Notes: generated by a model from the sequence alone, not told the origin. 64,000 nucleotides of DNA from Gammaproteobacteria bacterium (GCA_013003425.1 JABDJB010000006.1:72248-136247); one strand, 5' to 3'. Shown: positions 881 to 48,548, numbered from the stretch's first letter. Translations and numbers: made by a program.

Positions 881-1472
881 GCTCTTTCAAAGCCACACGT
901 ACCGGCTGGAACGAGCGTCGATGCACCGGCGCCGGACCGTGTCGGGTCAGCGCCTCAAGATGTGCGGGCGTGGGATAACCTTTGTGACGTGCAAATCCAT
1001 ACTGTGGGTACAGTCCGTCAAGCTCGCGCATAACGTGATCACGATGCACCTTGGCCAGTATCGAAGCGGCGCTTATCGCGCGACGACTGGCATCGCCGCC
1101 GACCACCGCCTCGACCTCACAGCACCAGCGATCCGGCAGCACGGTGTGCCGCCCGTCAATTTCAACGCGTTGCGGGTCCAGACGCAGGCCCTGCAGCGCC
1201 CGCCGCATGGCAATGAGCGACGCCTGGAATATATTGAGTGAATCGATCTCGTGCGGGTCGGCCCAGGCCACCGACCAGGCCAGGGCCCTGTCGCAAATCC
1301 GCTGGGCCAGCAGTTCGCGCCGTTTTGGCCGTAGTTGCTTCGAATCACGCAGACCGTTAATACGCCGCTGTGGATCGAGCATCACCGCTGCCGATGTCAC
1401 CGGTCCGGCCAGCGGACCACGCCCTACTTCATCGACACCGGCGACCAGCAGCCAGCGGGGTGCCCCGCTCAT
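873..1472 (-). CDS. rnhB: Ribonuclease HII
   Basis: Cleaves the RNA strand of RNA-DNA hybrids and initiates ribonucleotide excision. The 199-residue protein is full length for the family. The N-terminal VDEVGRGPLAGPV signature supplies catalytic Asp14 and Glu15; further acidic residues lie in EIDGR (about 106) and in the AASILAKVHRD helix (about 145). The start overlaps lpxB by 4 nt and the end overlaps dnaE by 8 nt, so translation of the three is probably coupled. Placement between lpxB and dnaE is standard. Confidence 0.97.
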   Translation of the reverse strand: MSGAPRWLLVAGVDEVGRGPLAGPVTSAAVMLDPQRRINGLRDSKQLRPKRRELLAQRICDRALAWSVAWADPHEIDSLNIFQASLIAMRRALQGLRLDPQRVEIDGRHTVLPDRWCCEVEAVVGGDASRRAISAASILAKVHRDHVMRELDGLYPQYGFARHKGYPTPAHLEALTRHGPAPVHRRSFQPVRVALKEHE

Positions 1473-35931: not shown

Positions 35932-38900
35932 TCAGTCGTTCGACTCGCGTCGCGCCCAGAAATCCCGGTCGCGCAGGTTGTCCTGGTCGGCCTTGAAGCG
36001 GAAACGAATGTACGGGCCGCGCGCCGTGTAGCGGGCGTCCGAGAAGTCCTCGTCGTCGAATCCGGCAAAGTTATAGCCCAGGCTCAGCCAGACGTTGCGT
36101 GCAAAGGAGTAACCGATATCGGCGCCGATGCTGTAGTCGACGACATCAGAATTCCACGAGTGCAACAGTGAACCCTGCACGCCTGCATCCCAGCGTGACG
36201 AAAAGTCCCGACGCCAGTCAATACCCACCAGGTCGGTAAAGCCGTTGTAGCCATTGCCGTCGATATCGCTGCGCACATATTTGACGCCGTACTGGAAGCC
36301 CAGCTGATTGCTGCGATTTATCATCCAGTTGGCATGGAGGTTGTTGACGATGCGTGACGACTCGGTTTGTGTGCCGATCGCCTTGAGTTCCTCGTATTCG
36401 AGATCCAGCCGGTCGAGGAATACCCAGCGTGCGGTGGCCGGTCGATAAGCCCAGCTCAGACGTATATCGGCATCGGTCAGGTCGACGCCAACATCACGCT
36501 GCGAATTAAAGAACTGCAGCGCCGCCGAAAACGCGCGACCCTGTTTTTCTTCGCGATAGAAGCCGCCAAACAGACCGGCCCGTCGCTCGTCATCACTGTT
36601 GCGCCATTCGCTGCGAGTATTGACTGTCCAGTCATCATGCTTGTAAAGCGTACCAACATAGAGCGAGGTGAAGTCCGCAGCTTCGCTGCCTGAAGGTAAT
36701 CCGGCGTCTGGGTTGAACGCACCGGCACCGGGCGCGGTCAGCGTATTGGAGTGATCGACGCCGAAGTCCATTGCCCAGCGTTCGTTTATCTGCCAGCCCT
36801 GCACCAGCCCCAGCGTGGCAAACGCCCGCGGCCCGTATTCAGTCATCTCCTGGCTGACGCTGGAATTAAACTGGGCCCGGTTCCATGGTGTTGCGCGTAC
36901 GCCGGTACGTGTCATCTGTGACTCAATATCCCGGCCTTCGGCCCGCTCGTGTTCGGTATAAAGCGTCACGTCATCGTTCAGCTTGTAGTCCAGCCCGACA
37001 ATCGTACGTGTCGGATAGGCAATGTTGGCATCATCACCAAGATCAGAATCCAGCGACCCGCGCAGCGTCAACCGGTTACCCATGGTCTTGATGCTGCCGT
37101 TGACGAAGACCTGCTCGGAGGCGGCAGTCGTCCCGTCACGCGCTTCGTCTGTTGCATCACGATATCCAACGCCGGCAGTCGCAGCGCCACGTTGCCAGCG
37201 TAACCCGCTTTCATACACTTCGCGGCGCACGTCGCTCTCGAGGTTATCCTGGCGATAGGCGGCAGCATCGATGCTCAGGTGCTTGCTGAAACGCAACCGG
37301 CCATCAAAGCCCATCTTGCGCATTCCGGTTTCTGCTGCGCGCTGCTGGCCCAGCCCGAATTCCGTGTCGATCTGGCGATAATAAACCTTGCCATCTACCT
37401 TGCCGGCGGTGTGGCGCAATTCAGCAATCGCCGCGTCGCCCTCCGTCGGCACCCCGCCCTGGCGGGTATCGGAGCTGGCAAACTCGGCCCGTAACTCCGT
37501 GCCGTCGGCAATGCGCAGTTTTAGATCGAGACCCTGCAGGTCTCCGTCGGCACCACTGGTACCCTCGTCGATCATGGTCGCGCCGACCTCGACCCGGCCG
37601 TCGGCCAGTCGCAGCGATGCACGCCCGCCTGCGGTAGTCGAGCGATCCACCGGATCACGGCTTTCGTAATCGACGACAATAAATACCGGATTAAATCGCT
37701 CGTCGCGGTGGCGCACCGGCTCCTTGAAAAATATCGTGCCGGCCAGGTAATCGATATCGTAATCGAGATGACGAGTGAGCGTGCGTGAGCTCACAATCTC
37801 CTCCGAACGGAATCGGTCACGCGTTTCCAGCGTGATTTTTTCGCTGTTGATAACCAGTGGCTGACGTGACAAACGATACAACCCGGAAGTACCGTCACCA
37901 CGCAGTTCTTCCTTGACGAAAGCCTGGTCAGTGCGGGCGGTGAATGCGGTATAGCCAAAGCGTTCGCCCTGGTACTCGCTCTGGAAGCCATTGAAGCTGC
38001 GGTCGTAGCGCGACAGCTCGGTTACCGTCATCCCGGTGTCGTAGTCGCCGAACATGGCGTAAAACTGGCCACGCTCCAGCTTGACGAATATTTCATCCTG
38101 GCTGGCCGCATCGAACTGCTGTTCGGTGGCATCACCATAAAGCGTGTAAAAGCGATCCGGGTCTATAGTGCCATGCAGGCGCTGCCGCGCTTCCTGTTCG
38201 TCACGATCCGAGTCGTAGGCCAGCGTCAGCAGGTAGTCACCCTTGATGCGACCCTTGGCAAAAAACGCTACGCGCCCGTCGGTATAAAAGTCCTCTTCAT
38301 AACCGGCGTCTTTGGCGCTCTGGACATTGTCGTTGAGCGTACTGTACCCGGCCGTACCCTCGGCAAATCCCACCAGGATCCATTCACGCGTTGCCGGCTC
38401 GAGCCACGCGCGTAACTCCTCCTCGCGTTCGTCGGCGTATTCCATGTGCAGCACGACTTCACCGCTAAGCGAAGTCGCCTCGAGCTCGATGCGGGCGAGT
38501 CCGTCGGCCCCAACACGGTAAAGGGGCTGTCGATTGCCGAGCTCGAGCAGCTGGTTTTCGCGTAACGATTCCACTTCAAACCAGGACCGGTACGGCGGAT
38601 CGACACGAAATGTCCCGATTGACTCGGGCCGCGCCGGGTAGCCCCAGCGATCGTAAAGACGCACTGCCAGCACCGGCCGGGTGCGACCGTCGGCCAGCAA
38701 CGACGAAGCCTCGCGGTCGACCTCGGCGCGTACCGGTCCACCGGACAGGTGCACGTTGCGTTCAATCCGTCGCACCACTGTACCGTCTGCATCACGCACC
38801 ACGACAACAAGCTGGTTGTCGTTTTCGGCAATATCGACACCACGCCAGCGACTCAGGCTGACAGTCTTTGCAGCATTGGTATCGGTGCCCTCAAAGCTCA

Positions 38901-41826
38901 GCGCGCTCACCGGTGCGCCATTCAGCGCAACTTCGACTTTCTGCCGTGGTGCGTGCTTGACCGCAATGCGCAGCGACGGGATAGGCGGATTGTACCCGGG
39001 CAGCGGGAATACCAGGTCGCTGCCGGGATCGAGCCGGCTGACCCATGCCGGGTCATTGAAATCGGCCAGCGGATCAGACGCCTCCACCGGTAACTGCGCC
39101 AGCGACAGTTTCTGCTCGCGTGCAACTTCCAGTCGTTGTGGCCCGCTGCTTGTCTTGCCCAGGCGCATTGCACCGGGACTGACCGGCATCTGACCCCAGA
39201 GCTGCAGCTCGACCCGGCGGTTTTTCGCCCGGCCAGCCGCACCTGCATTACTTGCCACCGGTTTGTCCGGCCCGTTCCCTGAAATACTGATTTGCTCCGG
39301 AGCCAGCTGCAGCAGCGACTGAATGAATTCTGCAGCTGCCGTTGCACGTGCACGTGACAGCACATAGTTGTCAGCGAATTCGTGACGATTCTGTGGCGCA
39401 ATTCGTACGTTATCGGTGTGACCGGAAATAACGACATGCAGGTCGCTTGCCTGCTCCCATCCTGACAGCGCTTCGGCAATGCGTGCACGGTCGCGCGCCT
39501 TCAGCTCCGCCTTGCGGGTATCAAAGTTTGTGGTGAACACCAGGTCGACGCGGTCGCTTACCGGCGGTTCGCGTATGAGCGTGTTGTCGGCCAGCGGCGT
39601 GCGCTGCCTCTTCTTTGTTTCGGTGTCGAAGCTGACCAGGGCCTTGGTTACGTGCTCGCCGGCAGCTGCTCCCGGCAGGCCACGAAACTGGATAACCCGC
39701 TGCCACGGGGCACCCGCCGCATCACTCAACGGGAACGTCAGCAGGTTTCCAGACACCGTCGGGTCGCCGCTGCGTGCGCCATCGAGCCGGACGCTGCCCG
39801 GTACGAAAATAACGTTGTCTGGCAGCATCACCATGGTCCTGACGTTGCTGACTGGCACGCCATCACCACCTACCGTCAACGTGTAAATCACGTCCTGACC
39901 GGCGGCGCGGGAAGACAATGCTACCGCCACCTCTCCGCTGGGCGCCGGCAACTGACGCAGGTGGAAATCAGCGCGCCACAAGGCGCCAGCGCGTACATCA
40001 ATAAACTGTGAATAGGAGCGGCCGGCGAACCGTGCGTTGCGCTCACACGGCACGATCTCAAAGCCCTCCGGCACGGTATCGACATCGAGCTGCACAACGT
40101 GACCACCTGGCCGGACGCCCTCGAAGTGATAGCGCCCGCCCTCGTCACTGACGACATACCTGCCGTCCTCGAGGTAGATGCGAACTCCGGCCACACCGTC
40201 AGTGTCGTTGCCTACATCCGCATCACAGGATCCACTGATGACACGGCCCAGCACAGTGCTGCGGGAGCGGAATAACGCCTCTGCCAGGCGTACTGTCGCA
40301 GTAGCCACGTTGGATTCGGCGCCCCCCGCGGCGCGCGCGATCGCCGTGTTGATTGCTTCCGGACCACGGCTGCCTGCAACGATCTCGGCAACATAGTCGA
40401 TTACCGTGCGACCGGCCGGGGGCAGGTCACCAATGTCGAACTGCAGCTGGCGGCGGTCGGCTGATACCGCCGGGTCCGGGGCGCTGCTGCCGTCCACGCG
40501 GACCGAACCCGGTATCAGGCGCAAACCAACCGGGAGCTCATCGGTGATGATTACATTGTTTATCGGCTGCAGTGTGTCCGGGTTTTCCAGTGTGAGCGTG
40601 TACTTGAGGAAATCACCAATCGACGCAACGGCAGTTGCCGTGCTTTTTTGCAGAAACAGGACCGTCGATACCGGATCGAGCGGGATATCGATCATGATCG
40701 CCGGACCCGGGTCAACCATGAAGGGATCGCCAAATGAACCTGCACTAATGTTGAACGGTGCGCCGGGTAAAGCCTGCAGATCAATTATCGCGGTGGTCGA
40801 TGGCGCCGTATAACCCGCCGGTGGAGTCACTTCCAGCCGGTATTGCCCCGGGCTGACCAGCGGGTAACGATACGCGCCGGGATCGAAGTCATAATCGGCC
40901 CCGCCGCTGTCTGTCGCGACCCCGCCACTTACCACTTCGGCAGGAAACTCGCTTGCGCCGTCGTCACCAAAAACAAACGCGGGCAATCCACTGGTCACTT
41001 CAATCAAGCGGACTATTGCACCGTCAACCGGCACACCAGTCTGTGAGTCGAACACAATGCCCAGCGGATCGACCAGCGCGCTGTCGGTTGTGACATCGCT
41101 GGAATCGGCCGGATCAACATAGGTCGCCCTGATCGAGTAACCCACCGCAACCTGCAGCTGGCAATCGTGTCTCGTTGACGGCATCGCTGCGCTGGGCACG
41201 TAGCCTACAAATTGCCCGCTGTCGGGTGCTGATTCTGTCAGCTGGATTATTTCCAGGTCGCCGGATGCAGGTACCTCCAGCTGCACCTCGACGGTCTCCG
41301 CCACGGCGGAATCGAGATTCTGGTCGGGATCGGCGACTTCGACAAAAAACGCCTCGCCGGTATGAAAAAACTGCGCCGGACTCAGTGGCTGGGAATCTGC
41401 GACGTTCAGCTGGGTGCCGTCAGCGAGTACCGGTGGCGGCAGCAGGGTCAGGCCCGAACCGGTTTCGCAGCTGCTGGGTCCGGTGGGCGCGGCAAATGTC
41501 CCGCCGCCCGCATCGACACGAACAAATTGCAGCCGCGCCGGCGTGCGCCTCATTTTGGTGACGATATTGGCAGAATTGCTGGCGACACTGCGGCCGACGC
41601 CGGCAGCGTCACTGTAGGCAACCGCCGCCACGTTCGGGATTACAGTGCCGGGTGGTGTCGCCGCCGAGCAAAGCAGCGGCAAAAATGCACCAGCCAGCAA
41701 CGCGACGACGCGCGTCAGAATCTGACGCGCGTCGAGGCTCGTGAAACACAGCGGGATCAGGTGCAGTCCTGCAAAACCTTCAATGCCCGCTGTATTTCTA
41801 TTCTGGTTGTACGAGCGCGGAATCAT
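35932..41826 (-). CDS. Giant DUF11/OmpA-like outer-membrane protein
   Basis: 1964 residues; function unknown. Domains by eye: a long N-region and hydrophobic signal (about 36-55, cleavage near CSA-ATPP); a mature start TPPGTVIPNVAAVAYS; DUF11 domains around 395-500 and 655-740; between them an SdrB/carboxypeptidase-regulatory-like domain (VLGRVISG.., EDGRYVVSDEGGRYHFEGV); an OmpA-like peptidoglycan-binding domain (about 760-880: TTNFDTRKAELKARDR, ISGHTDNVRI, KNRRVELQLWG); a linker with possible Ig fold; then a C-terminal beta-barrel (about 1230-1964) rich in Tyr/Arg strands. Last gene of a four-gene operon. ATG 41826 has GGAGG 12 nt upstream. Confidence 0.85.
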   Translation of the reverse strand: MIPRSYNQNRNTAGIEGFAGLHLIPLCFTSLDARQILTRVVALLAGAFLPLLCSAATPPGTVIPNVAAVAYSDAAGVGRSVASNSANIVTKMRRTPARLQFVRVDAGGGTFAAPTGPSSCETGSGLTLLPPPVLADGTQLNVADSQPLSPAQFFHTGEAFFVEVADPDQNLDSAVAETVEVQLEVPASGDLEIIQLTESAPDSGQFVGYVPSAAMPSTRHDCQLQVAVGYSIRATYVDPADSSDVTTDSALVDPLGIVFDSQTGVPVDGAIVRLIEVTSGLPAFVFGDDGASEFPAEVVSGGVATDSGGADYDFDPGAYRYPLVSPGQYRLEVTPPAGYTAPSTTAIIDLQALPGAPFNISAGSFGDPFMVDPGPAIMIDIPLDPVSTVLFLQKSTATAVASIGDFLKYTLTLENPDTLQPINNVIITDELPVGLRLIPGSVRVDGSSAPDPAVSADRRQLQFDIGDLPPAGRTVIDYVAEIVAGSRGPEAINTAIARAAGGAESNVATATVRLAEALFRSRSTVLGRVISGSCDADVGNDTDGVAGVRIYLEDGRYVVSDEGGRYHFEGVRPGGHVVQLDVDTVPEGFEIVPCERNARFAGRSYSQFIDVRAGALWRADFHLRQLPAPSGEVAVALSSRAAGQDVIYTLTVGGDGVPVSNVRTMVMLPDNVIFVPGSVRLDGARSGDPTVSGNLLTFPLSDAAGAPWQRVIQFRGLPGAAAGEHVTKALVSFDTETKKRQRTPLADNTLIREPPVSDRVDLVFTTNFDTRKAELKARDRARIAEALSGWEQASDLHVVISGHTDNVRIAPQNRHEFADNYVLSRARATAAAEFIQSLLQLAPEQISISGNGPDKPVASNAGAAGRAKNRRVELQLWGQMPVSPGAMRLGKTSSGPQRLEVAREQKLSLAQLPVEASDPLADFNDPAWVSRLDPGSDLVFPLPGYNPPIPSLRIAVKHAPRQKVEVALNGAPVSALSFEGTDTNAAKTVSLSRWRGVDIAENDNQLVVVVRDADGTVVRRIERNVHLSGGPVRAEVDREASSLLADGRTRPVLAVRLYDRWGYPARPESIGTFRVDPPYRSWFEVESLRENQLLELGNRQPLYRVGADGLARIELEATSLSGEVVLHMEYADEREEELRAWLEPATREWILVGFAEGTAGYSTLNDNVQSAKDAGYEEDFYTDGRVAFFAKGRIKGDYLLTLAYDSDRDEQEARQRLHGTIDPDRFYTLYGDATEQQFDAASQDEIFVKLERGQFYAMFGDYDTGMTVTELSRYDRSFNGFQSEYQGERFGYTAFTARTDQAFVKEELRGDGTSGLYRLSRQPLVINSEKITLETRDRFRSEEIVSSRTLTRHLDYDIDYLAGTIFFKEPVRHRDERFNPVFIVVDYESRDPVDRSTTAGGRASLRLADGRVEVGATMIDEGTSGADGDLQGLDLKLRIADGTELRAEFASSDTRQGGVPTEGDAAIAELRHTAGKVDGKVYYRQIDTEFGLGQQRAAETGMRKMGFDGRLRFSKHLSIDAAAYRQDNLESDVRREVYESGLRWQRGAATAGVGYRDATDEARDGTTAASEQVFVNGSIKTMGNRLTLRGSLDSDLGDDANIAYPTRTIVGLDYKLNDDVTLYTEHERAEGRDIESQMTRTGVRATPWNRAQFNSSVSQEMTEYGPRAFATLGLVQGWQINERWAMDFGVDHSNTLTAPGAGAFNPDAGLPSGSEAADFTSLYVGTLYKHDDWTVNTRSEWRNSDDERRAGLFGGFYREEKQGRAFSAALQFFNSQRDVGVDLTDADIRLSWAYRPATARWVFLDRLDLEYEELKAIGTQTESSRIVNNLHANWMINRSNQLGFQYGVKYVRSDIDGNGYNGFTDLVGIDWRRDFSSRWDAGVQGSLLHSWNSDVVDYSIGADIGYSFARNVWLSLGYNFAGFDDEDFSDARYTARGPYIRFRFKADQDNLRDRDFWARRESND
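41706..41734. repeat. 13-bp perfect inverted repeat inside the signal-coding region
   Basis: Arms CGACGCGCGTCAG and CTGACGCGCGTCG separated by AAT, within the N-terminal coding sequence of the giant DUF11 protein. In mRNA it would form a very stable hairpin about 90-120 nt after the start codon. It could slow or regulate translation, or be a binding site. It encodes LDARQILTRV in frame. Confidence 0.75.
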
Positions 41827-41844
41827 GCGCGCCCCAGTCCTCCT

Positions 41845-43056
41845 TTACTGTATTTCCACGCGGAAGCTAACGTCGGCTCTGTCGCCGGCATTCAGCGTTA
41901 CCCCGTTCACCGTCATCACATTTGCGATGAACTGACCGGTATCAGCGTCTGCTTCCTCGCTCAGATCACTCGTAACCGGCGCTCCGGCACCGGGGGTATA
42001 AACCAGGCGGATATCGCCGGCTGCCCCGTACTGGTCCGCAACAAACGCCAGCGATGGTGTTGGCCCACCCATCTCACTGCTCAGGTCATCAGCTATAACC
42101 ACGTTTGTCGCCACTGCACCGCCTGCTGCGTTCGTAATCGTTACTACGTATTCGACGATGGCACCGGGTATTGCCTTGGGGAATGACCCCACAGGGCAAA
42201 CACCACCCGGGCAAGTGAACGGATCACTAATGACCGCCGAGCTCTTCAGAACCGACAGGACTGCCGCAGCAATCCTGTAGGCGTCTTCGGACGAGTGCTT
42301 ACCATCACGGTCGGCATCGCCCGCATAGTTGGCGTTTTCACCGTCGGCAAAAACGTCTTCTACGCCCAACGTAGTATCGGCAATTCCCCGATCATCTGTA
42401 GCGATCGCGCCCCCTGCAACGCCGGCCCCACCGCCTTCTGCGACCTGCGCCTCGAGCACATATGCGGCAATATCACCGTCGACCTGGGCCAGCGGGATAT
42501 TGGCGACCAGGAACACCGTAACAGAACTGTTGATATCCAGCTCATCGACATGGGTCGCCGTATCGACAGCCGGATCATACAAATTGTTGCCGTCAGCGTC
42601 GACGAACACGGTCAGACCCGTGGCATCGAAGTTATCCGTGCCCCCGAACGGGTCAAATCCCGTCGCCGATGCGCTGAGCAGGAAATCCTGCGTCTGGTTA
42701 CCTTCGTTGGTCACCGTCCAGGCCAGAACCGCCCCGGTCTGCCCGGGTGAGACACTCAGCGTGGTAGCGCTGTTGTAGGCTGTGCTGCGCTCTGCAACAA
42801 GCACATCAAGTTTGCGGTCGACAACAAACTCCGTCGCCCCGATACCATTGTTCGGGTCAGCATCGTTGTCACTCAGCACCGGCGTCTGGTCCACCCCGCC
42901 GACCCGGTACTGGACCTGGGCCTGGTTGAAAACCGAAGTACCCGCGCGGGTGCCGCCGGGATCAGTGCCAGCGGCCAACGCGGGCTGCACGGCAGCCAGG
43001 GCCAGCAGCCCGGAAATAACCGGTGCCAGTTGCAGCAGGCGACCAAAGTTTCTCAT
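41845..43056 (-). CDS. Exported DUF11-type beta-sandwich protein with calcium-loop motifs
   Basis: 403 residues with a Sec signal peptide (cleavage near ALAAG, residue 29). The mature protein begins GTDPGGTRAGTSVFNQAQVQYRV-like sequence, a motif shared with its operon mates. Several beta-sandwich repeats follow, the last (about 275-400, SVLKSSAVISDP, GAIVEYVVTITNAAG) being DUF11-like. Acidic loops FVDADGNNLYDPAVD and DADRDGKHSSED look calcium-binding. One close Cys pair lies in FTCPGGVCPVG. Probably secreted or surface-attached; function unknown. Confidence 0.8.
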   Translation of the reverse strand: MRNFGRLLQLAPVISGLLALAAVQPALAAGTDPGGTRAGTSVFNQAQVQYRVGGVDQTPVLSDNDADPNNGIGATEFVVDRKLDVLVAERSTAYNSATTLSVSPGQTGAVLAWTVTNEGNQTQDFLLSASATGFDPFGGTDNFDATGLTVFVDADGNNLYDPAVDTATHVDELDINSSVTVFLVANIPLAQVDGDIAAYVLEAQVAEGGGAGVAGGAIATDDRGIADTTLGVEDVFADGENANYAGDADRDGKHSSEDAYRIAAAVLSVLKSSAVISDPFTCPGGVCPVGSFPKAIPGAIVEYVVTITNAAGGAVATNVVIADDLSSEMGGPTPSLAFVADQYGAAGDIRLVYTPGAGAPVTSDLSEEADADTGQFIANVMTVNGVTLNAGDRADVSFRVEIQ

Positions 43057-43112
43057 GACTTACTCTCCAAAACCGGCGCTCTCGCGACGCCGCAATACAG
43101 AAAAAACAATCC

Positions 43113-43586
43113 TTAGCGCAATTGCGCCCGAAAGCGGGCATAACCACGGCTGCCGGGCTTGAGCGGGTTGCGCATGCTCCAGCGAATGTGTGTGTAGTCC
43201 TCAGCGCGAGCGGCGCGCGCGCTACCGTCCGCCGCCACGACCATCAGTTCCTCGGCGGTACCGAAAGTCTGGCCGCCATCGACCGAAAAGCGGATATCCG
43301 CACCACCGGCAAATGCCGAACCCTCGACGTAACGCATTTCCTGCGGGACGGGGTCGGTAATTGTCACGCTGCTTGCATCGGCCTCACCCTGGTTGGTGAA
43401 GGTGATGGTGTAGATCACTTCGTCACCCGGCACGACAGTTGTTACCGGTACCAGCCGGGTCGCTGTCTCGCCTCGCTCATTGACGATAATCTCCTCGGTT
43501 TGTGCCACTGTTTGCACATGTACCGCCCCGTCAGCCAGTGCGATCATCGGCACCAGGGCCATTAATATCAGCAGAATTTTCTTCAT
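43113..43586 (-). CDS. Small exported DUF11 protein
   Basis: 157 residues, signal peptide to about residue 18 (MALVPMIALA-DG). One DUF11 domain (about 50-157): VVPGDEVIYTITFTNQGE, SVTITDPVPQEMRYVEGSA, IRFSVDGGQTFG. No cysteines in the mature part. It lies between the 329- and 403-residue operon mates with gaps of 15 and 56 nt. Could be a connector subunit of the same surface assembly; this is inference. Confidence 0.8.
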   Translation of the reverse strand: MKKILLILMALVPMIALADGAVHVQTVAQTEEIIVNERGETATRLVPVTTVVPGDEVIYTITFTNQGEADASSVTITDPVPQEMRYVEGSAFAGGADIRFSVDGGQTFGTAEELMVVAADGSARAARAEDYTHIRWSMRNPLKPGSRGYARFRAQLR

Positions 43587-43601
43587 GCTTGCCTTCCTCG
43601 A

Positions 43602-44591
43602 TCAGTCTATGGTGACTGTAAAAACTACGGTTTGCGGGCCGCTGGCAGCGGTAAGGTCGCCCAGCGCAACGCTGATCGTCGGCACACCCGCGATCGTTAC
43701 CAGTTCGCCGGCATCGGCATCCGGAGCATCGCTCAGCGGCGCCCCGTTGAGCGTGATGGTTGCTGGCGTATAAGTGGTGTTGGCGGGTACCGGATCGGTG
43801 AACGCAGCGTTGGCGGCAGTGCCGCCACCCGAAGGTGTCACAACGATTGTGTAGATGATCGATGCACCGGGAACGGGCTCGGTTCCACCAAACTGGTCAG
43901 CCACACTGGCTGACTTGACGACAGCCAGCTGGATGTCGCTGACCACATATTCACCGGTGTCGTTGTCAGTTGCGCCCGAGTTGCCGGCAACCGCATCGAC
44001 TCCGCCGTCACCAGCGCCGGCAAACACCGTTCCCGGGGCACCGTTGCCGGTAACCGACGTCGCGTCGAGCAGGCTGCGACCGATGTCACCATCGGCGGTA
44101 GTCGCTGGTATATCGTTGACGATCAGCACATCAATGGATGCATCCGCAGCCAGCACCGGATCGTTCACACCAGGATTGTACGGGGTATCGCCCGCAGACA
44201 AGTCGCCGCTGCCATCGGTATCAAAGTAGATTGCAGAAGGCGCCGACGGCACGGGATCGAAGTCGTCGCCGGCAAGCGCACTGTCGAGCACCAGGGAAAA
44301 AGCCTCAGAGCCGTTACCGACGTTCGTTACCGTAAACAGCAGCTCTTCTGCACTATCGCCAGGCGTCACCGGGCTCGGCGGGCTCTGCAGCGTCACATCG
44401 ACATCGAGTATTTCCGCCACCGTAACCGTGAGCGTGTTGGAGACTTCAGTTACACCGGAGCCGGAAACCTCGTACGTCACTTCCGCAGTGTTGTCGATGT
44501 CGGTTCCGGCGAGGGTGCCAACCGCGTTGGCTGCCGGTGCCGTACCCAGTCCGACAGCCACCAGGAAGGGCAGAAAGAATTGTTTGCGCAC
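43602..44591 (-). CDS. Exported DUF11-type beta-sandwich protein, first gene of operon
   Basis: 329 residues, GTG start at 44591. Signal peptide to about residue 23 (AAPAANA-VG). The mature N-terminus GTLAGTDIDNTAEVTYEVSG parallels the 403-residue protein and the giant protein. Two beta-sandwich domains: about 60-170 with the calcium-type loop FDTDGSGDLSAGD, and 215-329, a DUF11 domain (VPGASIIYTIVVTPSGGG, FTDPVPANTTYTP). Likely paralogue of the 403-residue protein. It follows a long untranslated leader. Confidence 0.8.
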   Translation of the reverse strand: MRKQFFLPFLVAVGLGTAPAANAVGTLAGTDIDNTAEVTYEVSGSGVTEVSNTLTVTVAEILDVDVTLQSPPSPVTPGDSAEELLFTVTNVGNGSEAFSLVLDSALAGDDFDPVPSAPSAIYFDTDGSGDLSAGDTPYNPGVNDPVLAADASIDVLIVNDIPATTADGDIGRSLLDATSVTGNGAPGTVFAGAGDGGVDAVAGNSGATDNDTGEYVVSDIQLAVVKSASVADQFGGTEPVPGASIIYTIVVTPSGGGTAANAAFTDPVPANTTYTPATITLNGAPLSDAPDADAGELVTIAGVPTISVALGDLTAASGPQTVVFTVTID

Positions 44592-47317: not shown

Positions 47318-47651
47318 CAATCAGCCGCGACGTCGGTCGCAACCCCGGCATGACCAGGTTTCGCGACTTTTGTCGCAAGCAATTCGCGGCTGAAGCCGCT
47401 CCCACACAGGTCGCAACAGTCGCGGCTGGAAGCCGCTCCCACACAGGTCGCAACAGTCGCGGCTGGAAGCCGCTCCCACACAGGTCGCAACAGTCGCGGC
47501 TGGAAGCCGCTCCCACACAGGTCGCAGCAATCGCGGCTGAAGCCGCTCCCACACAGGTCGCAACAGTCGCGGCTGAAGCCGCTCCCACACAGGTCGCAGC
47601 AGTCGCGGCTGGAAGCCGCTCCCACAGGAGCCGCCCCCACAGGAGCCGCTC
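47318..47651. other. Convergent intergenic region filled by tandem repeats
   Basis: 334 nt between the stops of pckG and the FHA-cyclase gene. About 270 nt are the repeat array described separately; the first 65 nt contain related fragments (GTCGCAA, TCGCGAC) and no gene. Confidence 0.8.
47384..47650. repeat. Tandem array of seven 36-37-bp REP-like units
   Basis: Six near-identical units start at 47384, 47420, 47457, 47494, 47531 and 47567, and a seventh at 47603 is longer and diverged. Each begins TCGCGGCTG(G)AAGCCGCTCC, an imperfect palindrome, followed by CACACAGGTCGCAACAG. The spacer portion is the same in each unit, so it is not a CRISPR array. Units alternate between GCTGAAGC and GCTGGAAGC versions. 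The location between convergent genes suggests a bidirectional terminator or stabiliser, which is inference. Confidence 0.93.
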
Positions 47652-48548
47652 CTACTCTTCGTAGATGAAGTGTATAGCCTGTGGTGAGTCGGCCTGCGGC
47701 ACCCGGCCGAGCCCGATTGCGCCCTCGCCTTTCAGCTGCACGCTGTCGCGGCGGACAAAATGTTCCTCGCCGCTGGACAACAATACACACGTGCCATTGG
47801 TGCTCTCATCGATGAGAATAAATTTGCCGCGCGAAAACTCGATGCGTGCGTGCATACGTGAAATCAGCGTGTCCTTTACCACCAGGTCACTGTCTTCGGA
47901 ACGGCCAATCGATACATTTGGCTGCTGCTCGTTCACGACCACTTCCTGACCACGGTAGCGCAGCCGCAGGCGCTGGTTACGCACGCCAGTGGCCTCGGCC
48001 CAGTCGATGGTCGGGAGCATGCGGGTGTTTTCACCCTGCTGCCACAACACTTCGTAAAGCGCGATTTCATCCGAAGTGCCGCGCATTGGTGTGAGGTCAA
48101 TCTGCCTTGTCGAGGCCTGCCACTCCGGCGACATTTTTGCGACCGTGTTGCCGCTGGTAACGATTTGAGCCGCCTTGGCCTGGTTACTCATGCGGTTGGC
48201 AATATGCACCGCACCACCGAACACATCGCCGTCTTCTTCCATGACCGGGCCAAAATGGAATCCGACACGAATCGCCACGGGCACATCTTCAGCGTCGACC
48301 TCGTTGCTGATGAAACTCTGCATTTGCGCGGCTGCTTCGACAGCATTGTCGACACGCGGGAACGTAGCCATGACCTCGTCGCCCATGGTCTTGATTACTG
48401 TGCCGTCATGCTTCTCGGTAGCGCGGGTCATCGCATCAAGGCAGCGGGCTACAGTCTCCCTTGCCTTGAGGTCGCCCATCAGCTCATAAAGCTTAGTGCT
48501 ACCGACAACATCCGCAAAGAGTATTGCCAGTTCAGTCTGATCTGTCAT
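47652..48548 (-). CDS. Class III nucleotide cyclase fused to an FHA domain
   Basis: 298 residues, soluble. An N-terminal cyclase domain (1-175) has metal-binding Asp residues in LFADVVGSTKLYEL and IKTMGDEVMATFP, and GGAVHIANRMSNQAKAAQIV. The C-terminal FHA domain (about 205-290) reads VSIGRSEDSDLVVKD..ISRMHARIEF..IDESTNGTCV, including the Arg, Ser, His and Asn that bind phosphothreonine. So a phospho-signal could recruit or control the cyclase. Likely monocistronic; the gene ends beside the repeat array. Confidence 0.92.
   Translation of the reverse strand: MTDQTELAILFADVVGSTKLYELMGDLKARETVARCLDAMTRATEKHDGTVIKTMGDEVMATFPRVDNAVEAAAQMQSFISNEVDAEDVPVAIRVGFHFGPVMEEDGDVFGGAVHIANRMSNQAKAAQIVTSGNTVAKMSPEWQASTRQIDLTPMRGTSDEIALYEVLWQQGENTRMLPTIDWAEATGVRNQRLRLRYRGQEVVVNEQQPNVSIGRSEDSDLVVKDTLISRMHARIEFSRGKFILIDESTNGTCVLLSSGEEHFVRRDSVQLKGEGAIGLGRVPQADSPQAIHFIYEE

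Follow-up and report, generated by a model that had tools for sequence, protein, structure and literature searches.

Chaperone-usher pili are organised around an acceptor-only tip, a stalk whose subunits act as both donors and acceptors, and a donor-only base. Among outer-membrane barrels, the SprA protein of the type 9 translocon has 36 strands and the classical autotransporter translocator has 12. The DUF11 domain is a common surface domain in bacteria and archaea, and its function is unknown. In fibrillar adhesins, DUF11 serves as a stalk domain in proteins that bear adhesive tips (PMC9210967). Subunits joined by donor strands without a chaperone-usher system have been described for the archaeal threads (Saci_0406), in a paper that leaves DUF11 unmentioned (PMC9715654), and, reportedly, for TasA fibres (PMC9674648). 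In the literature searched, no paper links DUF11 to the assembly of such an operon's products by donor strands, the single co-mention concerning Bacillus spore appendages, and no description of the operon reported below came to light.

The four genes analysed here, termed A to D, form a tight operon on the minus strand of a 64-kb window, that is, the whole stretch of DNA under analysis (Table 1). Their open reading frames lie exactly where the first-pass annotation had placed a DUF11 operon (35932-44591), and the gaps between A and B, B and C, and C and D measure 15, 56 and 18 nt. Signal peptides, as judged by eye, are recognisable at the N-termini of all four products. Upstream of the operon lie a divergent phasin gene and the PEPCK gene, and downstream a gene for a DinG-type helicase and another for a 221-aa protein that we take, from its sequence, to be TsaB. 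With these neighbours, the reported lack of sortase, chaperone and usher genes in the immediate neighbourhood of the operon was borne out. Just downstream of the PEPCK gene, the window also holds a tandem array (47384-47652) with 6.6 copies of a 37-bp unit (TCGCGGCTGGAAGCCGCTCCCACACAGGTCGCAACAG), which looks like a dispersed repeat of the genome because similar translated repeats occur in two further loci (L058 and L153).

Table 1. Coordinates of the four genes and of the features recognised or predicted in their products (window positions).
Feature	Position	Strand	Description and basis
Gene A	43602..44591	-	329 aa, exported, two-domain; predicted N-terminal donor strand and C-terminal DUF11 acceptor
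Gene B	43113..43586	-	157 aa, exported single DUF11 domain; predicted acceptor only, no donor motif, tip-like
Gene C	41845..43056	-	403 aa, paralogue of A; predicted donor and acceptor
Gene D	35932..41826	-	1964 aa, giant: predicted donor strand, beta-sandwich domains, DUF11, OmpA, Ig-like domains, predicted C-terminal giant barrel
A residues 24-58	44418..44522	-	Predicted donor: mature N-terminal strand VGTLAGTDIDNTAEVTYE...SN; motif conserved in orthologues
A residues 122-136	44184..44228	-	Acidic loop FDTDGSGDLSAGD, possible calcium site; invariant D124, D126, D135
A residues 216-329	43605..43946	-	DUF11 without strand G, predicted acceptor; hhalign stop at C-terminus, AF2 strands
C residues 35-66	42859..42954	-	Predicted donor: N-terminal strand (G)TRAGTSVFNQAQVQY
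C residues 262-403	41848..42273	-	DUF11-like without strand G, predicted acceptor; hhalign
D residues 57-92	41551..41658	-	Predicted donor: mature N-terminal strand TPPGTVIPNVAAVAY...SN; no acceptor within D
D residues 392-501	40324..40653	-	Intact DUF11, own G strand following at 488-516; Pfam, hhalign
D residues 768-870	39217..39525	-	OmpA-like domain with peptidoglycan-ligand residues D805, R827; Pfam 45.2 bits
D residues 930-1140	38407..39039	-	Two beta-sandwich (Ig-like) domains before barrel; AF2 model
D residues ~1180-1945	35992..38289	-	Very large predicted outer-membrane beta-barrel, at least 32 long strands
Near D 1310-1390			Plug-like region of predicted barrel

The first-pass annotation proposed no mechanism of assembly and overlooked what we regard as the central feature, new in this analysis: A, B and C carry DUF11 domains that appear to be split, since their C-termini end at strand F and the canonical last strand of the fold is missing. 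Assignment to the family itself varies in strength. Pfam DUF11 matches B with 42.9 bits and D with 28.6 bits (cut-off 24.6), scores A below that threshold (19.5 bits) and leaves C without any Pfam match, while the NCBIfam repeat model TIGR01451 (cut-off 24) places D, B and A above its threshold and C at 23.9. Aligned with the intact DUF11 domain of D (386-516), the C-terminal domains of all three proteins reach hhalign probabilities of 97-98%. The alignments halt where the proteins end, at reference position 96-97 of 131, and the F-G loop and G strand of the D domain go unmatched. The text of this missing G strand, I/L-x-N-x-A-x-V(-x-Y), is found instead at the start of mature A, C and D (GTDIDNTAEVTY, GTSVFNQAQVQY and GTVIPNVAAVAY). 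By comparison, F and G strands are continuous in single-chain DUF11 tandems, as in IVFDVTI-AAGTPAGTT-IDNLATV.

Both signatures recur across the family when counted over unique proteins, with a strict pattern for the F-strand end. The latter closes 46 of 46 A proteins, 58 of 61 B proteins and 51 of 70 C proteins (68/70 when placed within 9 aa of the C-terminus), against 35 of 510 other open reading frames. The donor motif stands near the N-terminus in 39/46 A, 55/70 C and 52/71 D proteins, but in none of the 61 B proteins and in 7 of the 510 other frames. Three donors (A, C and D) therefore face three acceptors (A, B and C), B accepting only and D donating only, and since chaperone-usher pili have a tip, stalk and base of that kind, this bookkeeping suggests a pilus-type reading. 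The pairing was also assessed in silico by scoring junctions of acceptor tails and donor heads with an F-G profile of the D DUF11 domain. In each of the nine combinations, the true donors outscored all controls; the tail of C joined to the head of A reached 8.6 bits, against at most 4.1 for controls, and to that of D 7.6 bits, values comparable to the 7.8 bits of the intact DUF11 domains of tip proteins. When the G-strand segment was compared with 452 windows of the four proteins, its best non-self matches were the N-termini of D and C, and that of A matched weakly. A single-sequence Pfam scan of the same junctions had been discarded in favour of family profiles, as the DUF11 score hardly changed and appending an unrelated segment did equally well. 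Taken at face value, these patterns suggest that the subunits may form a physical complex by strand exchange.

Several loci encode, before A or flanking the operon, a long protein (319 to 2125 aa) whose internal DUF11 domains are intact and whose terminal domain bears the acceptor signature. One of these extra proteins carries an H-type lectin domain (H_lectin, E 3e-8) and another a DUF3344 domain, and the divergently transcribed neighbours of the operon in three genomes (G090, G039 and G096; 1024, 555 and 530 aa) share the same C-terminal signature. All 11 long extra proteins end in the F strand, and none of the 11 has the donor motif. Lacking a donor strand, as B does, and in one case bearing a lectin, they would, together with B, sit at the tip of a fibre.

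A scan of 84,980 species yielded 281 related stretches, of which 79 loci were kept. As named in the database records, these belong to Gammaproteobacteria (many of them Woeseiaceae), Desulfuromonadales/Geobacterales, Nitrospirota, Desulfobacteraceae and Krumholzibacteriia, and the hosts are many unrelated aquatic and soil bacteria, including the named isolate Geomobilimonas luticola JCM 17780 (L099), in which B, C and D are accompanied by an extra protein with an acceptor end. Gene order was scored with A to D profiles in the 57 unique loci that offer at least 3.3 kb of upstream DNA. The order A-B-C-D is found in 43 of them (one with a frame-split C), A is replaced by another C-like or a longer DUF11 gene in eight, B-C-D stands without A in five and nothing of the module lies upstream in one, which leaves B-C-D present in 56/57. 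The conservation that the first-pass annotation had proposed to look for thus extends across phyla, far beyond what chance would produce, and the module is hence a unit rather than a fortuitous cluster.

Among 97 relatives, about 23 hold a D-type sequence and 21 to 22 a strong D orthologue (47-80% identity over the C-terminal half). Weaker matches (26-37% identity) were rejected as orthologues, as they reflect a barrel core common to other large proteins. Nineteen of the D loci in these relatives keep the order A-B-C-D wherever upstream DNA is present, with G090 as the sole exception. The expectation that the small genes keep company with the giant one holds without exception for A, as all 21 strong-A genomes possess a D-type sequence, and fails in part for B, of which a strong match occurs without D in 4/97 relatives (G058, G027, G007 and G049). 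In the opposite direction, D stands without A in two genomes, G048, whose contig breaks off within D, and G090, from which A is missing; the D homologues of G090 (L052) and of L132 both lack the OmpA domain and retain the barrel and the N-terminal donor region. Where order can be read, the lone B-like gene lies between those for PEPCK and the DinG-type helicase, the very slot taken by the operon in our window. B can hence be kept without donor partners, and this is the main caveat to the present analysis. At L154-L159, this slot holds a B-like gene on its own, with PEPCK on one side and the DinG-type helicase/TsaB genes on the other; the relatives concerned have no A, C or D, except for G039 and G096, which possess a full operon elsewhere in the genome as well.

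The giant protein D had been annotated with DUF11 domains, an OmpA-like domain and a C-terminal barrel. One DUF11 domain is clear and another weak, and there is no long DUF11 array; a weak SdrD_B-like domain follows at 541-591. The OmpA-like domain was recovered well above its Pfam cut-off (27.2 bits), and it probably binds peptidoglycan, because D805 and R827 are each found in 75 of the 76 sequences that have an OmpA region. An AlphaFold2 model of D 930-1964, built with 49 relatives (pLDDT 79, pTM 0.71), also predicts the barrel, preceded by beta-sandwich domains; the strand count in Table 1 derives from DSSP of this model. VIA-align ranks the FimD usher first (Z 16.9, 16.6 and 16.5 over some 350 residues, rmsd 8-13; 333 residues aligned at rmsd 7.9 in the top superposition), followed by porins (Z 14.8) and SprA (11.5). 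Foldseek, with low TM-scores, returns Deinococcus SlpA, SprA (E 2e-7 to 1e-6) and other barrels as top matches. Searched by sequence against the PDB, the barrel gave no outer-membrane protein and no SprA among its matches. Profile comparison with 32 ushers gave 53-63%, aligning the plug-like stretch, with LptD at 2% and reversed controls at about 3% or less; usher homology (62.5% against 0.6% for the reversed profile) is nevertheless not claimed, since TonB-dependent receptors reach 37-90%. In the genome assembly, neither the usher family PF00577 nor, at E 0.001, the PapD-type chaperone family PF00345 had any match, the corresponding controls being positive in E. coli. A DUF11 assembly anchored in the outer membrane and cell wall, as had been envisaged from the sequence, is partly supported: the conserved operon, the kept OmpA ligand residues and the predicted barrel all fit such an anchor.

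On balance, we lean towards a donor-strand-complemented fibre of split DUF11 subunits on the cell surface, with a base that would belong to the same protein as its outer-membrane anchor. The Ig-like DUF11 domains in which A, B and C terminate break off after strand F, and the mature N-terminus of A, C or D would supply the missing strand G, so that every subunit would complete, by its N-terminal strand, the truncated C-terminal domain of the subunit lying just outside it. The tip would be B or, in other species, a longer, lectin-bearing protein, the stalk would consist of A and C, and the N-terminus of D would complete the DUF11 domain of its neighbour as the base, giving a chain that runs from B (or the adhesin) through A and C to D. 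D itself would be held in the envelope by its giant C-terminal barrel, which would probably double as an usher-like exit, and by attachment of its OmpA domain to peptidoglycan. As the OmpA domain sits between the N-terminal half of D and the barrel, the chain would have two possible courses: threading through the barrel until OmpA arrests it at the periplasmic face, or retention in the periplasm. From this scheme we infer the order of A and C, the stoichiometry, export through the D barrel, surface exposure and an adhesive role.

The same connectivity weighs against a surface location: with OmpA, and its conserved ligand residues, N-terminal to the barrel, the whole N-terminal half of D would be periplasmic unless it were threaded out. 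The donor-strand chain might then be a bridge within the periplasm, in which D spans the outer membrane by its barrel and the cell wall by OmpA, with its N-terminal domains pointing inward and A, B and C lengthening the chain so as to stiffen or space the envelope, an arrangement with which the lack of separate secretion machinery beside the genes also agrees. The sequence is compatible with either a fibre or a bridge, and we regard the bridge as unlikely. It makes little sense of the extra acceptor-ended proteins with a lectin or long DUF11 stalks, which are typical of surface adhesins (PMC9210967), or of a barrel far larger than an anchor needs, and D is found without OmpA at one intact locus (G090) and at one other (L132).

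Less likely still, in our estimation, is that no strand is exchanged at all, the N-terminal strand of each subunit packing within its own protein, the terminal domain being stable alone and A to D being merely co-expressed exported proteins. The persistence of B alone in some genomes would suit such independence, and so would the AF2 monomer of A, which is confident throughout (pLDDT 95.7), N-terminus included: strands 8-34 of the mature chain are placed at pLDDT 88-97, and the last strand of the C-terminal domain at 297-305. The N-terminal strands of A may accordingly be part of its own fold, or complement it in cis, but AF2 may also put in cis a strand that really swaps between copies. Independence, moreover, would leave unexplained the orphan donor strand of D, which has no incomplete domain of its own, the constant lack of a donor strand in B, and the intact internal yet incomplete terminal DUF11 domains of the tip-like proteins. 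The A model itself resembles Ig-like domains (integrin, alpha-2-macroglobulin), with the donor-strand pilins SafD-A-A and CfaE-CfaB among its Foldseek matches (E 1e-5 to 1e-4). The acidic DxDGxG-type loop noted earlier is real in this protein, its three aspartates being invariant in 17 orthologues, and may bind calcium.

That D is mainly a secretion translocon, SprA-like or a two-partner exporter, which releases A, B and C and uses its DUF11 parts as a substrate receptor, would accommodate its very large barrel, the SprA and usher structures among the matches and the pairing of other same-core barrels in these genomes with exported DUF11 proteins (L148-L150, L058 and L152), but it is highly improbable, as the OmpA anchor and the donor strand on D point to stable attachment instead of release and no accessory translocon genes are conserved nearby.

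Since related barrels are paired with exported DUF11 proteins elsewhere in these genomes, the operon could represent a single branch within a larger group. The genome that carries it has a second, diverged system (G000:C29; L058 6548-13774 and L152 1927-9087), which comprises two small exported proteins, ending in FSVRMQ and RFRVTVN, followed by a D-like giant of 1928 aa whose mature N-terminus starts with IENTATANL, the same acceptor/donor arrangement, and it adjoins sensor-like and response-regulator-like genes. In a third arrangement (L148, L149 and L150; G003:C16, G006:C270 and G024:C17), the gene for a multi-DUF11 protein of 2100-2200 aa immediately precedes that for a 1700-aa protein; the barrel core is the same, and the donor motif is absent.

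For the favoured surface fibre, the split-domain pattern would supply a definite route to the polymerisation of DUF11 subunits, and it yields a testable rule for recognising such fibres in genomes, namely an F-strand C-terminus together with an I-x-N-x-A-x-V N-terminus. More tentatively, it is possible to postulate a new class of Gram-negative surface fibre, spread over several phyla, that would rely on donor strands and split DUF11 domains, would need no dedicated chaperone and would carry its usher-like barrel, peptidoglycan anchor and base in one polypeptide. If the split-domain mechanism is right, Gram-negative donor-strand fibres would extend beyond chaperone-usher and type V pili, and a single giant protein could serve as base, cell-wall anchor and barrel at once.

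At the level of sequence, the system shares with chaperone-usher pili (type 1, P, Saf and CFA/I) an incomplete Ig-like fold without its last strand and an N-terminal donor strand; it would also share an acceptor-only tip, sometimes with a lectin, and has a predicted outer-membrane barrel, the D model of which superposes best on FimD. It differs in that its subunits belong to the DUF11 fold family and are not pilins, in that the host genome has no PapD or PF00577 matches, and in that D would fuse base subunit, peptidoglycan anchor and a barrel with more strands into one chain. Hence, the assembly would work much as a donor-strand pilus does and yet, by the tests made (no usher family, no PapD), appears to be no chaperone-usher pilus. 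With SprA, D shares the predicted single-chain giant outer-membrane barrel, but it carries OmpA and DUF11 domains and its operon has no type 9 accessory genes nearby. Like classical autotransporters, D combines exported N-terminal domains and a C-terminal barrel, here a predicted one, in a single chain, although the D barrel is far larger, an OmpA domain lies between and separate subunits are encoded in the operon. Fibrillar adhesins likewise have a DUF11 stalk, built of single chains with intact domains, whereas the stalk of the present system appears to be divided among several polypeptides. Finally, unlike archaeal threads and TasA fibres, which have no outer membrane or OmpA/barrel base, the system described here possesses in D a protein that would supply such a base.
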